From Nocardioides sp. SYSU D00038 (GTDB lineage: Bacteria > Actinomycetota > Actinomycetes > Propionibacteriales > Nocardioidaceae), in the NCBI RefSeq assembly GCF_016924665.1, contig NZ_JAFFJT010000027.1, positions 1 through 64,000 of the forward strand: a DNA stretch of 64,000 nt, given 5' to 3'. Every line of letters begins with the position of its first letter. Within the stretch, counting starts at the first letter, position 1. Under the pieces are notes generated by a model that was given only the letters and a program-made list of their open reading frames with translations, was not told the DNA's origin and searched no databases. Shown here in pieces: positions 71 through 49,428 of this stretch. Made by a program: the position numbers and the translations under genes.

Positions 71-106
71 GGTTTCGAGACAGTCGCTAGCGCGACTTCC
101 TCAACC
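71..106 (-). repeat. Hairpin repeat copy 1, core AGTCGC-GCTA-GCGACT
   Basis: A 36-bp copy. Read on the minus strand it starts GGTTGAGGA and ends GTCTCGAAACC. The central 16 bases form a perfect 6-bp stem with a GCTA loop. The outer GGTT/AACC and GAG/CTC segments can also pair, with a small bulge. It is identical to copy 4 at 455-490. Confidence 0.85.
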
Positions 107-116
107 ACCGGGCGCT

Positions 117-156
117 GGTTGAGGTGCGAGGAGCGCTAGCGACGAGCCTCGAAACC
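117..156 (+). repeat. Hairpin repeat copy 2, 40-bp variant
   Basis: Starts GGTTGAGGTGCGA and ends GAGCCTCGAAACC, with a central GCTA loop. It belongs to the same longer subclass as the copy at 33162-33201. Its inner stem pairs imperfectly, unlike most other copies. Confidence 0.75.
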
Positions 157-370
157 CGGCGAGATGAACGCCCTCCGATCGCTCGGGCGTCGGGCCACTC
201 CTGTGGTGACTCGGGGCGCCCGCGCGCCTAGCAGGCCGACGCTCGCCGTCAAGGATTCCCTGCGGCGCCTTCGGCGTCCTTGACCGCGAGCCTCGGTCGG
301 CCTGCTGTACGGCGCACTGCCGGCACTCGCAAGCTCGCGCCGCCAGCATGCGCGGGCTTCGCGTATCGCT

Positions 371-403
371 GGTTGAGGAAGGACGAAGTCCTGTCTCGAA
401 ACC
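371..403 (+). repeat. Hairpin repeat copy 3, core AGGAC-GAA-GTCCT
   Basis: A 33-bp copy with the standard flanks and a 5-bp perfect stem closed by a GAA loop. The stem differs from the GGGAC/GTCCC copies in the 32.7 kb cluster by a compensated A-T to G-C change. Confidence 0.85.
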
Positions 404-454
404 CGGTGAGACAATAACCCTTCGGTGAGGACGGCAGGGTGTTCGGCCGGCGGA

Positions 455-490
455 GGTTTCGAGACAGTCGCTAGCGCGACTTCCTCAACC
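455..490 (-). repeat. Hairpin repeat copy 4, core AGTCGC-GCTA-GCGACT
   Basis: Same 36-bp sequence and orientation as copy 1. It lies about 100 bp before the HNH endonuclease start and faces copy 3 across a linker, giving the composite arrangement (two inverted copies around a linker) seen again at 32.8-33.1 kb. Confidence 0.85.
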
Positions 491-592
491 ACCGGCGACC
501 CAGGTAACGATCGGGTCACAACGTCGAATCCCGTTGTGGACAACGCGAAAACCAGGCCGGGGACTGTCGGTGGTCGGTGCTTGGGTGGAGGC

Positions 593-1813
593 ATGACAGC
601 GAAGGTCACACCCCACGGACGGCACCGCATCTCGCGTGCCGTCGCGGAGGTGCGGGCCACGCTGGGCGAGGTTGGGGAGCTGCCGCTGTGGAGCGTGCAG
701 GCACCTGAAGCCGCCGAGACCCTCACCGAGCTCGCCAAGCTCGAGTCCCAGGTGGCGGCGCTGAAGCTGAGGGTCGCCAGGCACGCTCAGACCCAGAAGG
801 TCGAGGCCGCCTCCGGCGCCACCAGCACCGCGGCGTGGCTGGCGGTCGCGACCCGCGCGACCCGCCGCGAGACCGCCAGGACGATGCGGCTGGCGGAGCT
901 GCTCGACACCATGCCCGTCGTCGCACAGGCGCTTGGACGCGGTGAGCTGCTGCTGGAGCAGGCCGAGGTCATCGCCAGGGCGATCGACAAGCTCCCCGAC
1001 GACGTGGACGCCGCGGTCCGCGAGCAGGCGCAGGCCAAACTGGTCGAGCTGGCCCAGCACCACGACGCCAAGGACCTGGTCGTCTTCGGCAATCGCATCC
1101 TCGACCTCGTCTGCCCTGAGGTCGGCGAAGCAGCAGAGGCAACAGCCCTCGAGCGCGAGGAGCGCGAGGCCGAGAAGGCCTGCAAACTCACCATGCTCGA
1201 CGACGGCGAAGGCCGGACCCACGGCCGGTTCGTCATCCCCACCATGCACGCCGAAGCCCTCAAGAAGGCCTTGTTCGCCCACGCCGCGCTCACCCACGAG
1301 AAGGTCACCTCGCAGACACTGGGCCAGGCGTTCTGCGACTACATCCTCCGCTACCCCGCCGACCGGCTCCCCCAGCGAGGCGGCGTCAACGCCACCGTCG
1401 TCGTCACCATCCCGCTCGCCGTGCTGGAGGGCCGGCTCGCGGCGTGCGAGCTCGACACCGGCACCCGGATCAGCCCCGGCGCCGCCCGACGCCTCGCCTG
1501 CGAAGCCGGACTCATCCCCGCTGTCCTCGACGGACAGTCCCAGGTCCTCGACCTCGGCCGCACCCGACGACTGTTCACCACCCCGCAACGGATCGCCCTC
1601 GGCCTGCAGCAGAAGACCTGCCGCAGCGAAGGCTGCGACCGACCCGCCTCCACCTGCGAGTCCCACCACAGGACCCGCTGGACCGACGGCGGCAACACCG
1701 ACCTCCGCGACGGCGTCCTCCTCTGCCCCTCACACCACCAACGAGCACACGACCCGGCCTACAACACGACCTACCTACCCACCGGCAAGGTCCAGTTCCA
1801 CAGGCGCACGTGA
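593..1813 (+). CDS. DUF222 / HNH endonuclease (13E12 family)
   Basis: A 406-residue protein. The ATG at 593 is chosen because it follows a good ribosome site (ggtggagg); the open frame extends upstream only into repeat DNA. The first 300 residues are the helical DUF222 region. The C-terminus carries an HNH nuclease module: CxxxxC, then ESHHRTRWTDGG, then LLCPSHHQRAHD. Such proteins occur in many copies in actinobacteria, including the 13E12 repeat proteins of mycobacteria, and are presumed DNA nucleases of unknown role. The gene is bracketed by hairpin repeats on both sides, which hints at a shared history. Family assignment is firm; function is not. Confidence 0.9.
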   Translation: MTAKVTPHGRHRISRAVAEVRATLGEVGELPLWSVQAPEAAETLTELAKLESQVAALKLRVARHAQTQKVEAASGATSTAAWLAVATRATRRETARTMRLAELLDTMPVVAQALGRGELLLEQAEVIARAIDKLPDDVDAAVREQAQAKLVELAQHHDAKDLVVFGNRILDLVCPEVGEAAEATALEREEREAEKACKLTMLDDGEGRTHGRFVIPTMHAEALKKALFAHAALTHEKVTSQTLGQAFCDYILRYPADRLPQRGGVNATVVVTIPLAVLEGRLAACELDTGTRISPGAARRLACEAGLIPAVLDGQSQVLDLGRTRRLFTTPQRIALGLQQKTCRSEGCDRPASTCESHHRTRWTDGGNTDLRDGVLLCPSHHQRAHDPAYNTTYLPTGKVQFHRRT

Positions 1814-2002: not shown

Positions 2003-2037
2003 GGTTTCGAGACAGGCGTTGCACGCCTTCCTCAACC
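2003..2037 (-). repeat. Hairpin repeat copy 5, core AGGCGT-GCA-ACGCCT
   Basis: A 35-bp copy with standard flanks and a 6-bp perfect central stem. The stem sequence is found in no other copy in the window, yet it is fully complementary. Confidence 0.85.
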
Positions 2038-2100
2038 AGCGGGAGCGTTGCACGCCTTCCTCAACCAGCGGGAGCGTTGCACGCCTTCCTCAACCAGCGA
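2016..2100 (-). repeat. 29-bp tandem array derived from the hairpin repeat
   Basis: The distal half of copy 5 is repeated at a 29-bp period (units begin at 2016, 2045 and 2074). Each unit carries gttgcacgccttcctcaacc. The later units lack the tttcgaga half and so cannot form the full hairpin. The array looks like local duplication of a broken repeat. Its last ggttga (minus strand) supplies the stop codon of the next gene. Confidence 0.85.
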
Positions 2101-2671
2101 CGCGGTCGAGGAAGGCCAGCACCCGCTCGACGACGAGGGCGGTCGCGTCGGCGTCGTACGACGGGAGCGAGCTGTCGGTGAACAGGTGCTGGTCGCCGGA
2201 GTAGGTGAAGACCTCGCCCAGACCGGGGCCGGCGGCGGCCACGACCTCGCGGGCGGCGTCGAGGTCGCCCTCGAGGGCGAAGAACGGGTCCTGGTCCATG
2301 CCGTGCACCTGCACGGGGAGACCCGCGGGCCAGGGGCCGACGGCCCACTCCCCCGAGATCGGCAGGCAGGCCTCGAGCAGCACGGCGCCGCGGGAGCCCG
2401 GTCGGGTCTGGGCGTGGCGCTGCGCCGTGGCGACCCCCCACGAGATGCCGGCGTGGACGACGTCGGTGGGCAGGTCGGCCAGCCGGGCGTCGACCTCGTC
2501 GTCGCTCAGCGTCCGTGCCAGTGACATCCCGTCCTCGAGCGTGTCCGCCACGACGCCCTCGAACAGGTCGGGCGTGTGCACGGTGTGCCCGCCGGCGCGC
2601 AGCCGGTCGGCGAGCTCCCGCACCCCGTCGGTGAGTCCCTGCACGTGGTGGAGGAGCAGTACGTCGGCCAT
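2090..2671 (-). CDS. Dienelactone hydrolase family protein
   Basis: A 193-residue alpha/beta hydrolase of dienelactone hydrolase type. The likely triad is a Ser nucleophile at residue 77 in GISWG (many family members have Cys in this elbow), an Asp in HGMDQD (about 126-128) and His162 in GDQHLF. The N-terminal LLLHHVQGL matches the family's first strand and oxyanion loop. The substrate is unknown. The final codons (Val-Ala-Gly-stop) lie inside the 29-bp repeat array, whose ggttga provides the TGA. The protein is somewhat shorter than the usual 230-250 residues. Confidence 0.85.
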
Positions 2672-30698: not shown

Positions 30699-31958
30699 AT
30701 GCTCGCTCGGACCGCCATCCGGATCGGAGCCGTCGCGACGGCCTGGTCGATCGTCGCCCTCTCGGGCTCGCCCGCCCTCGCCGCCGCCCCCGTGGCCCAG
30801 GCCAGCGCCACCGGCCTGACCCTCACCCTGCTCAGCAGCCCGGTCGACTCCGGCAGCTACCAGGTCAGCCACGACGGGGAGAAGCAGACCGCGAGCGGCA
30901 ACAACGAGCCGGTGCTCGGCCTGCTCGGCGGCCAGTCCCTGATCTCGGCCGGGACCCTGGCCCAGGACGCCGTGACCCGGATCGACAAGGGCAACGGCAT
31001 CTCCGAGGCCTGCGCGGGCCTGGCCGGCGACGGCGCCACCCTGGTCGCGGCCGGCGACGGCGCCTGCCTCTCGGGCGGCAACAACGTCTCGATCAGCGCG
31101 GCCGACCTCGACCTGAGCAAGCTGACCCTCACCAACTCCACCGTCCTCGACGGCCTCGCCCAGCCGCTGGTCGACCTGCTCCAGCCGGTCATCGGCCAGG
31201 TGCTGCCGCCGCTGCAGAACGCGCTGCAGACGGTGCTCACCTCCGTCGGCGACCCCAAGATCGTCGTCGACCTGGGCGCCGTGCAGAGCTCGTGCCGGGC
31301 CACGCCCACCTCGGCGACGGGTGACTCCGACCTGGCCGACGTCGGCGCCTACGTGCAGGTGCTCAACCAGCGGGTCGACCTGGTCAAGCTGCCGGTGCAC
31401 CCCGAGCCCAACACCAAGCTCGTCACCGGCCTCGACAAGGTCGTCGACGCGGTGCTCAAGGCCGTCAAGACCCAGCTCACCACCGCCCTCGGCGGCACCC
31501 TCGCCCAGCTCGGTGTGGTCGTCGACCAGGCCGCGGTCGTCACCAACATCATCGGCCAGATCGCCAAGCAGCTCGGCCCGCTCGAGGAGAACATCCTCAA
31601 CGGCACCCTGAACAAGCAGGTCCGCCCCTCCAAGAACGCCATCGAGGTGACCGCCCTCGAGCTCGAGGTGCTGCCGGTCGCGAAGCAGTTCGGCGTCGAG
31701 GTGCTCTCGCTCGCGATCGGCAAGAGCACCTGCGGACCCAACGGCCGCGTCGCCGCTCCCCCGGCCGACCCGACCCCCACGTCCACGCCCACGCAGCCGG
31801 TCCCGACCTCGGTGCCCGCCGGCGTGACGGGCGCCTCCGCCCCGACCGACACCGCGACCACGATGCCGCTGGCCGCCGTGGCGGGCCTCGGCGCGCTGCT
31901 CCTGCTGGCCTTCGGCGCCGGTGCCGTCAGCGTCCGTCGGGCCGTCGCCCGCCGGTGA
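30699..31958 (+). CDS. Secreted protein with C-terminal membrane anchor, sortase neighbour
   Basis: A 419-residue protein with a signal peptide (1-30, ALA-AA), a long helical/beta exported domain containing about eight Leu/Val-rich repeats (residues 130-330), a Pro-Thr linker (ADPTPTSTPTQPVPTSVPA), a membrane helix (about 385-408) and a basic tail (RRAVARR). This is the layout of a wall-sorted protein, but no LPxTG or LAxTG motif is present before the helix. Its stop overlaps the GTG of the sortase gene, so it may be that sortase's substrate through a non-standard signal. ATG at 30699 after gggagg. Confidence 0.8.
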   Translation: MLARTAIRIGAVATAWSIVALSGSPALAAAPVAQASATGLTLTLLSSPVDSGSYQVSHDGEKQTASGNNEPVLGLLGGQSLISAGTLAQDAVTRIDKGNGISEACAGLAGDGATLVAAGDGACLSGGNNVSISAADLDLSKLTLTNSTVLDGLAQPLVDLLQPVIGQVLPPLQNALQTVLTSVGDPKIVVDLGAVQSSCRATPTSATGDSDLADVGAYVQVLNQRVDLVKLPVHPEPNTKLVTGLDKVVDAVLKAVKTQLTTALGGTLAQLGVVVDQAAVVTNIIGQIAKQLGPLEENILNGTLNKQVRPSKNAIEVTALELEVLPVAKQFGVEVLSLAIGKSTCGPNGRVAAPPADPTPTSTPTQPVPTSVPAGVTGASAPTDTATTMPLAAVAGLGALLLLAFGAGAVSVRRAVARR

Positions 31959-32686
31959 CCGACCCGGCCGTCGGCCCGGATGACGACCGGGTCGACGACG
32001 TACCGCCGGAGCTGACCCCAGGGTTCGACCTCCTCGACCGACTGGCCGGGAAGTTCAGCACGGTCACCACCGTGGTGACCGCGGTGGTGCTGCTGGCTGT
32101 CGTCGGCCTCCTCGGGTGGTCGGTGCTCGGTCCGGACGATGACGACGACGAGCCGGCCGCCGCCTCCGCGGGGGCTCGCTACGAGACGCTCAAGCCCGCC
32201 GAGCCGCTGCGCCTGATCGCCCGCTCGGTGAAGATCGCCGCGCCGATCGTCCCGATCCAGGTGAGCCCGGACGCGGTGCTCGACCCACCCCGCGACCCCA
32301 AGCAGGTCGGCTGGTGGGACGCCAGCGCCGAGCCCGGCGCGCTCACCGGCCAGACCGTGATCACCGGCCACACCGTGCACACCGGCGGCGGCGCCATGGA
32401 CCGCGTCGACCGCCTCGAGCCCGGCCAGTTCGTCGACGTCCAGACCCAGCGCGGCACGATGCGCTACGAGGTCACCAAGGTCAGCGTCCTGTCGAAGGAC
32501 GAGGTCGCCGAGAAGGCGGTCTCCCTGTTCGGCCAGGAGACCGGCGACGGCCGCCTGGTCCTGGTCTCGTGCGACGACTGGAACGGCAGGTTCTACGAGT
32601 CCAACGTGATCGTCTTCGGCAAGCCCCTCGGCAAGCCGGTGAAGACCCCGAAGCCCCAGGACACCACCCGCGCCTCCGCTGGTTGA
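31955..32686 (+). CDS. Class E/F-type sortase
   Basis: A 243-residue transpeptidase. Cytoplasmic acidic N-terminus, membrane helix (about 37-58), Asp-rich linker, then the sortase domain. The catalytic triad is visible: His139 in GHTVH, Cys206 in LVSCDDW and Arg212 in GRFYESNVIVF. WWDASAEPG resembles class F sortases. It would cleave surface proteins and attach them to the wall. It is coupled by GTGA to the preceding secreted protein. The last codons (Ala-Gly-stop) come from a hairpin repeat copy (GCTGGTTGA), so the true C-terminus may once have differed. Confidence 0.9.
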   Translation: MTDPAVGPDDDRVDDVPPELTPGFDLLDRLAGKFSTVTTVVTAVVLLAVVGLLGWSVLGPDDDDDEPAAASAGARYETLKPAEPLRLIARSVKIAAPIVPIQVSPDAVLDPPRDPKQVGWWDASAEPGALTGQTVITGHTVHTGGGAMDRVDRLEPGQFVDVQTQRGTMRYEVTKVSVLSKDEVAEKAVSLFGQETGDGRLVLVSCDDWNGRFYESNVIVFGKPLGKPVKTPKPQDTTRASAG

Positions 32687-32701
32687 GGCCGCCTCGAAAC
32701 C
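32681..32701 (+). repeat. Minimal hairpin repeat at the sortase stop codon
   Basis: A 21-bp copy, GGTTGAGGC-C-GCCTCGAAACC. The flanks are retained but the core stem is reduced to GAGGC/GCCTC with a 1-base loop. Its TGA is the sortase stop. Confidence 0.8.
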
Positions 32702-32751
32702 CCGCCGGCCGACCGCCCTCCGGTGGGGACGGGAGGGCTCTCGGCTCACCG

Positions 32752-32784
32752 GGTTTCGAGACGGGACTTCGTCCCTCCTCAACC
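32752..32784 (-). repeat. Hairpin repeat, core GGGAC-GAA-GTCCC
   Basis: 33 bp, standard flanks. Same sequence as the copies at 32888-32920 and, with one flank change (gtgac for gagac), 33025-33057. Confidence 0.85.
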
Positions 32785-32801
32785 AGCGGTAGCCCACCGG
32801 T

Positions 32802-32837
32802 GGTTGAGGAAGTTGCGCTAGCAACTGTCTCGAAACC
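32802..32837 (+). repeat. Hairpin repeat, core AGTTGC-GCTA-GCAACT
   Basis: 36 bp. Relative to copy 1 (AGTCGC/GCGACT) one stem pair has changed from C-G to T-A on both sides, a compensated change. Identical copies lie at 32938-32973 and 33075-33110. Confidence 0.88.
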
Positions 32838-32887
32838 CCCGCCGGCCGAACGCCCTCCGGGGGGGACGGAGGGCTTTCGTCTCACCG

Positions 32888-32920
32888 GGTTTCGAGACGG
32901 GACTTCGTCCCTCCTCAACC
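32888..32920 (-). repeat. Hairpin repeat, core GGGAC-GAA-GTCCC
   Basis: 33 bp. With 32802-32837 it forms one composite unit around a 50-bp linker. Confidence 0.85.
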
Positions 32921-32937
32921 AGCGGTAGCCCACCGGT

Positions 32938-32973
32938 GGTTGAGGAAGTTGCGCTAGCAACTGTCTCGAAACC
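32938..32973 (+). repeat. Hairpin repeat, core AGTTGC-GCTA-GCAACT
   Basis: 36 bp, 136 bases after the first copy of the same type. Confidence 0.88.
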
Positions 32974-33024
32974 CCCGCCGGCCGAACGCCCTCCGGTGGG
33001 GACGGGAGGGCTCTCGGCTCACTG

Positions 33025-33057
33025 GGTTTCGTGACGGGACTTCGTCCCTCCTCAACC
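33025..33057 (-). repeat. Hairpin repeat, core GGGAC-GAA-GTCCC, flank variant
   Basis: 33 bp with gtttcgtgac instead of gtttcgagac, which breaks one outer pair. Confidence 0.85.
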
Positions 33058-33074
33058 AGCGGTAGCCCACCGGT

Positions 33075-33110
33075 GGTTGAGGAAGTTGCGCTAGCAACTG
33101 TCTCGAAACC
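33075..33110 (+). repeat. Hairpin repeat, core AGTTGC-GCTA-GCAACT
   Basis: 36 bp, 137 bases after the previous copy of this type. Confidence 0.88.
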
Positions 33111-33161
33111 CCCGCTGGCCGAACGCCCTCCGGTGGGGACGGGACGGCGCTCGGCTCACCG

Positions 33162-33201
33162 GGTCTCGAGGCTCAGGCCTAGCGGCCTTCGCACCTCGAC
33201 C
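33162..33201 (-). repeat. Hairpin repeat, 40-bp variant, core AGGCC-GCTA-GGCCT
   Basis: Flanks are GGTCGAGG and CCTCGAGACC on the minus strand, so the outer T-A pair has become C-G on both sides, again compensated. The central 5-bp stem is perfect with a GCTA loop. Same length class as 117-156. Confidence 0.82.
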
Positions 33202-33216
33202 AGCGCAGGTGCCGGT

Positions 33217-33260
33217 GGTCGAGCAGCGAGGAGCCCCAGCGACGAGCGTCCGTCGAGACC
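33217..33260 (+). repeat. Hairpin repeat, 44-bp divergent copy
   Basis: Flanks GGTCGAG...GTCGAGACC pair; the centre (gcgaggagccccagcgacga) folds only partly. Confidence 0.65.
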
Positions 33261-33309
33261 CCTGCACCCGACCGCCCTCCGGTGGGGACGGAGGGCTTTC
33301 GTCTCACCG

Positions 33310-33342
33310 GGTTTCGAGACAGGACTTCGTCCCTCCTCAACC
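33310..33342 (-). repeat. Hairpin repeat, core GGGAC-GAA-GTCCT
   Basis: 33 bp. One stem pair is G opposite T, which would still pair as G-U in RNA. Confidence 0.85.
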
Positions 33343-33642
33343 AGCGAGCTGCCGCGCCGCACGGCACGGAGGCGGCGGAGCGACGGGCGTCGTTCGGCAC
33401 GTAGACGGCGGCGTGGCGCCGACACGAACGCCGGGGAACCGCAGGGCAGAGTCCGGCGACACGGCAACGAGTGCCGAACGACGTCCGGCGCGCAGCAGCC
33501 GCAGTGCCCACCAACGCGCGGCACCCCGCACCCCCGCCCACCAACAGTCACCACCCGCCCGGATCACACCAGCCCGCAGTCACCACCCGCCCGAGCACCG
33601 TCCCCGGAGTCACCCGCTCCAGGGAGGCGTTCGGCGCACCCG

Positions 33643-33679
33643 GGTCTCGACGACGCTCGCTGGCGCTCGCTGCTCGACC
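33643..33679 (-). repeat. Degenerate hairpin repeat beside the acylase stop
   Basis: On the minus strand GGTCGAGCAGCGAGCGCC continues to CGTCGAGACC. It follows the acylase stop by 12 bases. The joint (ggtagccgccatggct) resembles the ggtagcccaccggtgg joint of the main cluster, so the TAG stop lies in repeat-type sequence. Confidence 0.65.
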
Positions 33680-33690
33680 AGCCATGGCGG

Positions 33691-36138
33691 CTACCGCGGG
33701 GCGGAGAGCACCAGCCGCCGGACGAGCTGCTTGCGGATCTGCTTGTCGGTGAAGGCGAACCGCACCCAGCGCTTGGCGGCGAAGAGGCGGGTCTGGTCGG
33801 AGGACCAGCGGGAGGTGGGGTCCTCGTACTGGCCGTAGGTGAGGATCGTGTCGGCGCGGACCCGGCCGCGGTCGAGGAAGGCGATGGACTGGATGTGGGA
33901 GGAGCCGTAGGTGACGGCCTTGTAGCGGTCGCGGTTCTGCACCGGCTTGCGCGACGACAGGGTGTTGGCGTTGCCGACGGCGTCGCCCTCGCCGCCGCCC
34001 AGGCCGATCGCGGGCGCGCCCCGGTCGCCGGCGACCTGGAGGCTGCCCCACGTCGCGTTCAGCGGGATCCGGCGGGCCCGCAGCGAGGCGATCGCGTCGG
34101 ACATCGCCTTCACCACGCCCTGGTTGGTCGTCAGCAGGCCGCGCGGGGTGTTGAGCGGGTCGGCGACGTCGAACGGCACCTTCCAGATCCCCTTCTCGGG
34201 GAGCCGCTCGACGAACTCCTCGAAGATGTGGGTGCCGCGCGAGCCGGGGTTGGAGCGGCCGTCCCAACGGCGCAGCACGGCGCACGCGTCGGTCTGGCCG
34301 GTCTTGGCGCACACCGCGTCGAGGGCACCGTCGGCGCGCATCACCTCGGCGGCGCGCAGCCGGTTCTCGTGCTGGTGGCCGCGGAAGCTGGCCGGGGTCT
34401 CCTTGCCGCGGGCCAGCCGGTCCTGCACGTAGCGGGCGACCATCCTGGTGCGCATCGTCCGCGCGCAGCGCTCGCAGCCGATGATGTGGGCGTAGCCCTC
34501 GAGCCGCTGGGCCGGGTTGGGCAGCCAGTAGGAGTCGTTCGCGTTCATCACCCAGTCGCGGCGGAACGTCGCCGGGAGGTTCCTGGGGCCGAAGACGCCC
34601 GGCCGCTGGGCGTCGGGGTCGGTGCCCCAGGCACAAGCGCTACCGGCCCGGGTGCCGTCGAGGCCGGGGAGGCCGGCGACCGAGTCGATGATCCGCCCGA
34701 TGACGGTCATGCACCTGTTCGCCATCGCGTCGGTCACGTGGGGCACGACCGAGTGGTCGGCGTAGAGCACGTCGCCGGCGCGGTCGGCCGCGGTCGTGTT
34801 GACCCACGGCATCCCGCCCTCGCGGTCCTGGCGGCGCAGCAGGTCGCGCACCGAGGTGGCCTTGCCCATCTCGAGGAAGGTGTCGATGGTGCGCAGGTGC
34901 TCTGCGTTGGCGTCGCGGATCGCCCAGAAGCTCAGCGGACCCCACGGCATGAACTGAGCGGGGTCGTCGATCACGTAGCCCTGGGCGGTGCGGTAGAGGT
35001 CCTCGGTGACGGTGCCGAGCGAGCCGTCGGCCTTGCGCACGGTCACCTTCACCACGCGCCGCTCGAGCTGCTTGACGCCCTTCTCGGTGCGGTAGCCCAG
35101 GCGGCCCGCGCGGCGGTACTCGTACGGCGTGAAGCGGTACGCCGTCGACACCGTGTGGCTCCAGGCGACGGACCTGTTCCAGCCGATGTTGATGGCCGGC
35201 GAGCCGATGAGCGAGGCACCCGCGACGTCGTACTTCCCCGGGATCGTGAGGTGCTGCTGGGTGAAGTGGTAGCGACCGCGCCACGGGAAGTGGGGGTTGC
35301 CCAGCAGCATCCCGCGGCGGGTGCTGGTGGCGGCGCCGCCGACCGCGGTGGCGTTGGAGCCGAACTGGGCGGTGGGCTTGAGCGAGGCACGCAGCGCCTC
35401 GCGCTCGGCCTCGCTGAGGTCGGCGGCCTTGAGCGGCAGCTCCGGCAACCCGGGGTCGCTGAGCGTGGGCGGGGCGGCGTCGACCATCTGGCCGACGAAG
35501 ACGCCGCTGGAGGCGAGCAGGTTGGCCAGGTAGACGCCGTACCAGAGGTCGAGGGTGGTGGCCCGGGTGCGGAGGTAGCCGGCGTTCTTGCAGGCGGGGT
35601 CGGTCACGCCGGCGGGGCCGCCGACCTTGCGCAGGTACTTGTTGATGCCCGCGACGTAGCCGCCGACCATGGCCCGGGCCTGGCGCCCCGGCCCGCGCAC
35701 GGGGTCGGCGAGCAGCCGCTCCACGACCCGGCGGTTGCGCAGGTCGGTGACGAACGCGTCCACCTGGAGGTTGGTGACGTCCATCGACACCTGGTCGTCG
35801 TAGCGGGCCGCCGGGCCGAACCAGCGGGAGCGCTGGCCGCGCGCGGTGACCAGCGTGTCGGCGAGCGTGCACAGCGACGCGGCCGCCGCGGCGTAGCCGC
35901 TGCCGAACCCGAGCGAGCCGAAGTCCTTGGCCTTCACGTGCGGGATGCCGTGGCGGGTCACCCGGACCACGGCGCGGTACTTCTTCCCACGGCCGGGCTT
36001 CGCGGGCGACGTCACCGCGGGCCCGGCCTCGCCCACCGCGCCCGGCTCCCCCGACGCGGACGGCCCGGCGACCACCGCGAGCGGCACCAGCGGGACCAGG
36101 CAGAGAGCAGCGATCAGTACGGTGACGCGTCGGGTCAT
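33691..36138 (-). CDS. Secreted penicillin/AHL acylase family Ntn-hydrolase
   Basis: An 815-residue exported precursor. The signal peptide covers residues 1-30. The alpha region (about 50-258) is followed by the autocleavage site QFG|SNATAVGG, where Ser261 becomes the catalytic N-terminus. Later landmarks are MLLGNPHFPWRGRYHFTQQH, WNRSVAWSHTVS (oxyanion/Asn region) and NATWGSLQVAGDRG. Family members deacylate beta-lactams or acyl-homoserine lactones; the length and NPHFPW context favour the AHL-acylase-like branch. The 3' end abuts repeat DNA and its TAG lies in a repeat-like joint. Confidence 0.9.
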   Translation of the reverse strand: MTRRVTVLIAALCLVPLVPLAVVAGPSASGEPGAVGEAGPAVTSPAKPGRGKKYRAVVRVTRHGIPHVKAKDFGSLGFGSGYAAAAASLCTLADTLVTARGQRSRWFGPAARYDDQVSMDVTNLQVDAFVTDLRNRRVVERLLADPVRGPGRQARAMVGGYVAGINKYLRKVGGPAGVTDPACKNAGYLRTRATTLDLWYGVYLANLLASSGVFVGQMVDAAPPTLSDPGLPELPLKAADLSEAEREALRASLKPTAQFGSNATAVGGAATSTRRGMLLGNPHFPWRGRYHFTQQHLTIPGKYDVAGASLIGSPAINIGWNRSVAWSHTVSTAYRFTPYEYRRAGRLGYRTEKGVKQLERRVVKVTVRKADGSLGTVTEDLYRTAQGYVIDDPAQFMPWGPLSFWAIRDANAEHLRTIDTFLEMGKATSVRDLLRRQDREGGMPWVNTTAADRAGDVLYADHSVVPHVTDAMANRCMTVIGRIIDSVAGLPGLDGTRAGSACAWGTDPDAQRPGVFGPRNLPATFRRDWVMNANDSYWLPNPAQRLEGYAHIIGCERCARTMRTRMVARYVQDRLARGKETPASFRGHQHENRLRAAEVMRADGALDAVCAKTGQTDACAVLRRWDGRSNPGSRGTHIFEEFVERLPEKGIWKVPFDVADPLNTPRGLLTTNQGVVKAMSDAIASLRARRIPLNATWGSLQVAGDRGAPAIGLGGGEGDAVGNANTLSSRKPVQNRDRYKAVTYGSSHIQSIAFLDRGRVRADTILTYGQYEDPTSRWSSDQTRLFAAKRWVRFAFTDKQIRKQLVRRLVLSAPR

Positions 36139-49342: not shown

Positions 49343-49428
49343 GAATCCCCGGTCGACCGGGGGTGCTGGGAGCTGTCGGGCATGGCCATGCCCGACAACA
49401 CAGGGAACCGCCGGTCAACCGGGGATTC
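49343..49428. repeat. Nested palindromic element
   Basis: Outer arms 49343-49360 and 49411-49428 (18 bp, one mismatch, gaatccccggtcgaccgg type) enclose a perfect 24-bp palindrome at 49374-49397 centred on catggccatg. The left arm is itself part of a 16-bp palindrome, ccccggtcgaccgggg. It lies between convergent genes and may terminate both, but is far more elaborate than the other terminators here. Confidence 0.75.

Follow-up and report, generated by a model that had tools for sequence, protein, structure and literature searches.

In-frame stop codons supplied to genes by a palindromic repeat of Nocardioides

Introduction

Why do two different genes in one stretch of Nocardioides DNA end in the same nine nucleotides, read in both cases from copies of a palindromic repeat? 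In the window, by which the whole 64,000-nucleotide stretch analyzed here is meant, a dienelactone hydrolase family gene and a sortase-family gene both close with Ala-Gly-TGA. A preliminary description had counted a penicillin acylase gene as a third gene end formed by the element, and had proposed that insertion trims and re-terminates neighbouring genes or is targeted to their 3′ ends. The features concerned are as follows.

2090..2671, minus strand: dienelactone hydrolase family gene (PF01738), ending ...FLDRV-Ala-Gly-TGA
2090..2098, minus strand: GCTGGTTGA, giving the hydrolase gene its final Ala-Gly codons and stop, from a repeat head
31955..32686, plus strand: sortase-family gene (PF04203), stop supplied by the repeat, ending ...RAS-Ala-Gly-TGA
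32678..32686, plus strand: GCTGGTTGA, Ala-Gly-stop of the sortase gene, from a repeat head
33691..36138, minus strand: penicillin acylase family gene (PF01804), TAG at 33691-33693, outside the repeat
33643..33682, minus strand: diverged repeat copy (GGTCGAG...TCGAGACC), starting 8 nt after the acylase TAG, no stop supplied

Materials and methods

The source genome was sampled as 66 stretches (406,661 bases) plus the window, together covering the first 100 of 194 sites of the repeat 13-mer and all 26 DUF222 genes; the stretches were chosen around repeats and DUF222 genes. Genes were called with a codon-usage caller built for this analysis (467 calls, some doubled where stretches overlap), and 414 distinct gene ends were examined in the 66 stretches and the window. 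Expected frequencies of terminal codons were calculated from codon and stop usage in the 398 genes with a score of 25 or more. The loose motif [CG][CGT]TGGT[TC]GAG gave 543 matches in the window and stretches, intragenic matches included. For the genus searches, 30-60 genomes were drawn each.

Length offsets are own minus orthologue, given as median residues, and cover 11 of the 22 repeat-stopped genes of the source genome. Orthologue rows were left out when over 25 residues of the query lay beyond the end of the match, or when no stop was met. Protein names beyond the five scanned with Pfam are putative assignments from the sequence.

Structure and distribution of the repeat

The repeat is laid out as CGCTGGTTGAGG-hairpin-CTCGAAACC. 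Its half unit of about 45 nt is a bulged hairpin that extends from a head, CG[CG]TGGTTGAGG, through an inner hairpin to the tail CTCGAAACC; two halves facing each other form a bilateral element of about 120 nt with terminal inverted repeats, and many copies are half elements only. Among head-to-facing-head spacings below 400 nt, 32 of 57 fall at 100-119 nt. The four bases preceding GGTTGAGG are CGCT at 171, CGGT at 42 and CGTT at 21 of 284 sites. Base frequencies 5′ of the first C of the head are close to background in the 543 loose matches, which include diverged copies and chance matches within genes, so that the 5′ boundary of the head is approximate.

The inner stem covaries, with changes on both sides in 4 of 6 pairs in the 37-nt class (26 distinct sequences), 5 of 6 in the 36-nt class (9 distinct) and 3 of 5 in the 35-nt class (7 distinct). 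Paired cells in these classes number 132/156, 51/54 and 35/35, and sliding the register leaves no more than 75, 26 and 18; the 34-nt class was left out of the count, its register being one base off (27/65 cells paired, 63/65 when slid by one). The mean paired arm of 4.8 falls to 2.9 when halves from different copies are joined. At gathering thresholds, Rfam returned three tRNAs and no other match in the window, and a known RNA family was rejected on this ground.

The window holds 12 complete copies, one of them diverged, and 12 occurrences of the nonamer GCTGGTTGA versus a mean of 0.21 in 100 shuffles. The copies at the hydrolase end and in the array beyond the sortase gene lie as follows.

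2003..2099, minus strand: repeat copy with one complete hairpin at 2003-2038; on the gene strand two more heads stand in tandem before it, at intervals of 29 nt, and the hydrolase gene ends in the outermost
32676..33347, no single strand: palindromic-element array, many elements facing, including three tandem units at 136/137-nt spacing

Tandem growth is visible at both places, as three heads at 29-nt spacing (2016-2102) and three units at 136/137-nt spacing (32697-33142). Elsewhere in the window, two abutting 43-nt arms (49343-49428, 81% complementary) form an inverted repeat that by eye is unrelated to the palindrome family.

In the source genome (4.34 Mb, 44 contigs) the 13-mer occurs 194 times versus 2 for the reversed control, and strict elements number 210 versus 0 in the control. 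The strict element was found in 28 of 59 Nocardioides genomes and, in a class-wide draw of 246 genomes, in 8 of 13 members of Nocardioides and 1 of 233 others. The repeat family is nearly confined to Nocardioides.

Gene ends inside the repeat

Both the hydrolase and the sortase gene end exactly as had been described, each with the nonamer as its last two codons and stop. The acylase TAG had been placed in a repeat-type joint; it lies 8 nt before a diverged head without TGA, and the gene was rejected as a third repeat-stopped case. That head, GCTGGTCGAG, is the nearest repeat-like sequence 3′ of the acylase on the same strand, and is stopless through the change of TTGA to TCGA. The supposed joint, GCGGTAGCC, recurs three times in the tandem array (32786-33080), and GGTAGC within 30 nt upstream accompanies only 10 of 543 loose-motif matches, four of these being the joint sites of the window. 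Compared with 14 matched loci, of which two hold a single split gene, the acylase C-terminus is itself at a median of +2.

Across the stretches and the window, the TGA of the repeat is the gene stop in 22 genes when the loose GGTTGAGG head is used and in 19 by the strict motif, in agreement with the proposed re-termination of neighbouring genes. The strict motif excludes three loose stop cases, C13_14507, C28_74280 and C35_79905, the last of which is a head-like match without a tail and probably due to chance; C6_82270 is a low-scoring call of 58 residues. The listing of coding sequences with the repeat's last codons gave 16 of the 398 called genes in the stretches and the window ending GCT-GGT-TGA (GCTGGTTGA), where 0.005 were expected from codon and stop usage, and because of this excess chance is excluded for the class of repeat-stopped genes. 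TGA is the stop of 340 of the 398 genes. The base before the nonamer is C in 17 of 19 repeat-stopped genes versus 254 of 376 others, which is only mildly unusual.

For the 73 genes of the source genome with a sense head nearby, the first sense head was located relative to the stop. It lies at offset 0 in 19 and 10-37 nt past the stop in 26; in none does it lie 1-9 nt past the stop, and none reads through it (no negative offset). The density at 10-37 nt is about 0.9 gene per position, and position 0 holds 19. Four called gene ends in the source genome overlap antisense half-motifs.

Genes stopping inside the repeat were also found in three other Nocardioides genomes (G013, two; G054, one; G072, one), and stop supply was thus observed in four species. 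MetX of G013 is offset by +3.5 (n = 4) and NirB of G072 by -2 (n = 11); stop supply recurs in other species, and the exact +2 is confirmed for the source genome only. One called gene of G072 runs on for 52 nt after a sense head (offset -52), and the end of one in G013 lies 24 nt beyond the point where an antisense head begins. Element variants stand shortly after the stop of the hydrolase gene in G016 and of the desaturase-like gene in G010; the same gene ends may have been hit repeatedly, or an old copy may have been kept. A gene of G054 (L330, 416-1504) encodes five C-terminal repeats of GRGGSPSPG type and runs into the element that supplies its stop.

C-termini of orthologues

Where the C-terminus is tightly conserved, orthologues tend to end two residues before the protein of the source genome. 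The offset is a median of +2 for the hydrolase (n = 21, exactly +2 in 11), threonine aldolase (n = 6, exactly +2 in 3), the LLM oxidoreductase on C28 (n = 5, exactly +2 in 4) and C26_241623 (n = 13, exactly +2 in 10). It is also +2 for C13_14507 (n = 58, exactly +2 in 15) and is +1.5 for adenosine deaminase (n = 96 loci, some species twice, exactly +2 in 27), both with C-termini that vary among orthologues. Mfd (n = 6) and C6_19066 (n = 9) are at +3, the LLM oxidoreductase on C6 at +1 (n = 7) and the desaturase-like gene on C35 at 0 (n = 3). The sortase is at +17 (n = 17) with a weakly conserved tail, and no conclusion was drawn from it. A typical pair of ends is YAQRTS-AG-stop in the source genome and YADRTS-stop in the orthologue.

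Judged by these comparisons, the repeat mostly appears to add Ala-Gly-TGA at the native stop without shortening the protein. Trimming, one of the effects proposed for insertion, was rejected: orthologues mostly end about two residues before the own protein, not after it, and where C-termini are tightly conserved their lengths do not point to trimming. Comparison with orthologues could have attributed the shared ends to coincidence, had these the same C-termini and stops; the C-terminus is common up to, and not including, Ala-Gly, and the comparison does not refute the role of the repeat. The adenosine deaminase of the source genome has its best match (88%) in N. lianchengensis. In the 78 adenosine deaminase loci that were read, the stop never coincides with a head; L197 alone carries a variant, some 20 nt beyond its stop.

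Linkage to DUF222 genes

Near its start the window carries a DUF222 gene with repeat heads on both sides: those at 99, 117, 371 and 483 precede it, and those at 2030, 2059 and 2088 follow it.

650..1813, plus strand: DUF222 gene (PF02720, E 1e-22), REP13E12-type; caller start 650, open frame from 425, ATG at 593
71..156: two repeat copies (71-107 minus, 116-156 plus) upstream of the DUF222 gene
370..491: a further pair of repeat copies (370-403 plus, 455-491 minus), facing each other, also upstream of the DUF222 gene

A C/H-rich pattern, which may be that of an HNH nuclease, is readable at the C-terminus of this gene; Pfam gives only DUF222 at 1e-3 and NCBIfam nothing at E 1. PF02720 has 28 matches in 26 genes of the source genome, and a head lies within 1 kb upstream of 25 of the 26 (23 of 24 called and two uncalled), across divergent subfamilies. 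With a chance per gene of about 0.05 (210 strict elements) or 0.12 (500 heads assumed, covering 1 kb each), P for 23 of 24 is 1e-29 or 6e-21, that is, below 1e-20 even under the second assumption. A repeat-stopped gene is followed directly in tandem by a DUF222 gene at C35_217490 and C26_241623 and, by coordinates, also at C14_7744 and C38_104539.

Linkage recurs in G072, where 14 of 17 DUF222 genes have the repeat upstream (P 2e-23), and in G013, where 5 of 27 DUF222 matches are linked, all on the 3′ side (P 1e-5), and 22 are unlinked. G054 has 32 elements and its sole DUF222 match is near none, and at the 20 DUF222 loci of G037, G018 and G015 no Nocardioides-type element lies within the 2.9-3.0 kb searched at each. 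As a universal association the linkage was rejected, 4 of 6 other genomes examined being without it. In many pairs of DUF222 paralogues homology stops with the stop codon of the gene or some 50 nt further on, and in others likeness continues 60-200 nt past the stop. By eye, no duplicated TGA was recognised in the 3′ flanks of DUF222 paralogues.

One DUF222 subfamily (L082, L081, L084, L066, L103) shares about 50 nt after the stop, GC-rich and pairable, after which homology mostly breaks off abruptly, as it would at the right-hand edge of a mobile unit. In G037, which belongs to another family of the order, DUF222 genes are numerous (L385-L396), with a 390-codon frame in 11 of 12 loci; these loci share an upstream motif, in many copies the 3′ flank ceases to match at the stop or shortly beyond, and they have no palindrome of the Nocardioides type.

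REP13E12/HNH endonuclease/DUF222 is grouped with repetitive elements of Mycobacteria in PMC10589994, and REP13E12 regions are described as without defined biological function in a 2026 preprint (PMC13061034). The window gene at 650-1813 shares the DUF222 domain with this family; the difference is the link to palindromes at stop codons, which does not appear in the available text of PMC13061034 or PMC10589994.

Discussion

We consider it likely that the repeat is a mobile REP/MITE-like palindrome with a preference for gene 3′ ends and stops. Elements would settle at gene 3′ ends, with a large subset placed precisely on the stop codon. There the head would substitute for the native stop and be read in frame as Ala-Gly-TGA, and the protein would keep its native C-terminus, gain two residues and stop inside the element. 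This exact placement would most likely reflect an insertion preference for the stop-codon junction or for a TGA-containing context, with purifying selection then removing out-of-frame insertions. The data show the anatomy of the repeat, its recurrence, the +2 position where C-termini are tightly conserved and stop supply in four species; placement by insertion, deduced from distant orthologues, the target preference and the enzyme are inferences. The suggestion that insertion is targeted to 3′ ends holds as a pattern (19 genes at the stop and 26 at 10-37 nt, of 73), but whether the pile-up at the stop stems from target preference or from selection is a distinction that sequences alone cannot make. 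Several observations weigh against this reading: the offsets of the sortase, Mfd, C6_19066, the LLM oxidoreductase on C6, the desaturase-like gene, NirB of G072 and metX of G013 depart from +2, one G072 gene runs on beyond a sense head, gene ends overlap antisense motifs in G013 and in the source genome, the hydrolase copy does not outdo its shuffles in folding, and no target-site duplication was identified.

Several other readings were weighed against this one. Coincidence or a gene-calling artefact would account for the tail-less C35_79905 and perhaps the weak call C6_82270, but with 16 genes where 0.005 were expected, and with conserved proteins such as adenosine deaminase running in frame into the head, it is extremely improbable as a general explanation. 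Insertion near gene ends could instead be random to the base, with only in-frame TGA events surviving. The lack of any gene among the 73 that reads a sense head in another frame is as expected under purifying selection, TGA is in any case the predominant stop (340 of 398), and the variable C-termini of adenosine deaminase (27 of 96 at exactly +2) and C13_14507 (15 of 58) leave room for small truncations. Selection only removes, however, and random insertion with selection explains the frame and not the excess at one base, because a density of about 0.9 per nt at 10-37 nt predicts about one gene at the stop, not 19; it would also be expected to leave C-termini short by one to several residues, while the tight cases (hydrolase, 11/21; LLM oxidoreductase on C28, 4/5; threonine aldolase, 3/6; C26_241623, 10/13) stand at +2. 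We regard such a survivor effect as rather unlikely.

Less probable again is that the elements are primarily transcription terminators or 3′-end protectors under selection, with mobility secondary and the stop a by-product of packing. Of the gaps in the stretches, heads occupy 27 of the 81 convergent, 37 of the 232 tandem and 13 of the 79 divergent ones, and 9 of the 13 head-bearing divergent gaps are upstream regions of DUF222 genes; these proportions are biased, however, by the choice of stretches around repeats and DUF222 genes. One bilateral copy folds better than shuffles (z -3.06) and sits between two convergent calls that both stop inside the element, one of them a weak 58-residue call, but the hydrolase copy shows no such advantage (z -0.77). 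Moreover, 31 of 59 genomes are without the element at the strict threshold, which argues against a general terminator of the genus, and the exact addition of Ala-Gly is left unexplained. That the elements are non-autonomous ends of a DUF222 mobile unit, whose protein moves both the unit and solo elements, is the most credible of these readings, although it too falls short of probable. It is consistent with the upstream heads at 25 of 26 own genes, the linkage in G072 and G013, the paralogue pairs that lose homology at or about 50 nt past the stop, and the lack of a Y1 transposase match in the source genome. The unlinked DUF222 match of G054, the 20 element-free loci of G037, G018 and G015, the 22 unlinked matches of G013 and the paralogue pairs alike for 60-200 nt past the stop count against it; DUF222 copies also spread in element-free genomes, and the linkage may be hitch-hiking or a common landing site. 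For a mobile palindrome that prefers gene ends, the DUF222 (REP13E12-type) protein is the best candidate mobiliser, an assignment we make only tentatively.

Among known systems, REP elements are short, multicopy, largely intergenic imperfect palindromes, often oppositely paired and 3′ of genes, with a conserved GTAG/GTGG foot 5′ of the hairpin. The Nocardioides repeat is likewise a short, multicopy, largely intergenic imperfect palindrome, often in facing pairs, 3′ of genes; GTGG arises only from the CGGT form among the bases preceding GGTTGAGG. It differs from REP/RAYT systems in carrying a stop used by the host and in that the linked multicopy gene is DUF222. The RAYT domain Y1_Tnp (PF01797) has no match in the source genome at E ≤ 0.001, with matches in 5 of 14 control genomes, and RAYT was rejected as the mobiliser on this ground. 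MITEs are non-autonomous inverted-repeat elements, possibly related to a larger gene-bearing unit; the bilateral elements resemble them in their terminal inverted repeats, and the element differs from them in that no target-site duplication or transposase was identified. DUF222 genes have the same heads upstream, and these might be ends shared with an autonomous element if the putative enzyme role of DUF222 holds, but the link is broken in other genomes. The target of MIRUs is DTGA, with duplication, and the head of the Nocardioides repeat contains TTGA. MIRUs insert at start codons with the ORF coupled at -4 nt, as described in PMC12548453. The likeness lies in a short repeat at a gene junction with codon function preserved, for the Nocardioides repeat at stops only and with insertion inferred; the difference is that MIRUs join genes and carry an ORF, whereas the palindrome terminates the gene upstream of it with an added Ala-Gly-TGA. 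We class the repeat with small palindromic mobile elements, and as a member of neither REP nor MIRU.

Stem-loop families in bacterial genomes are the subject of PMC2267715. For the N. dokdonensis genome, the available text of PMC5526307 mentions palindromic repeats only as CRISPR and lists ten putative CRISPR repeats without adjoining cas genes; these ten might be palindromic repeats of the stop-supplying kind. In the titles and abstract beginnings retrieved from the open-access literature, neither a Nocardioides palindrome at stop codons nor a role of DUF222 with such repeats is named.

An element that carries its own in-frame stop, exactly where one is needed, would offer a simple route to harmless insertion in a gene-dense genome. 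The identical dipeptide appended to many unrelated proteins matters for the annotation of C-termini, and the DUF222 linkage suggests, for a multicopy family of actinobacterial genes, a function open to testing. More speculatively, and in our view with the odds clearly against it, the DUF222 protein may be the enzyme of a new class of mobile elements with palindromic ends that recognise stop-codon junctions, the unit and its solo copies landing at TGA and giving in-frame Ala-Gly-TGA without damage; were this so, a stop-junction enzyme would give the actinobacterial 13E12 family a function.
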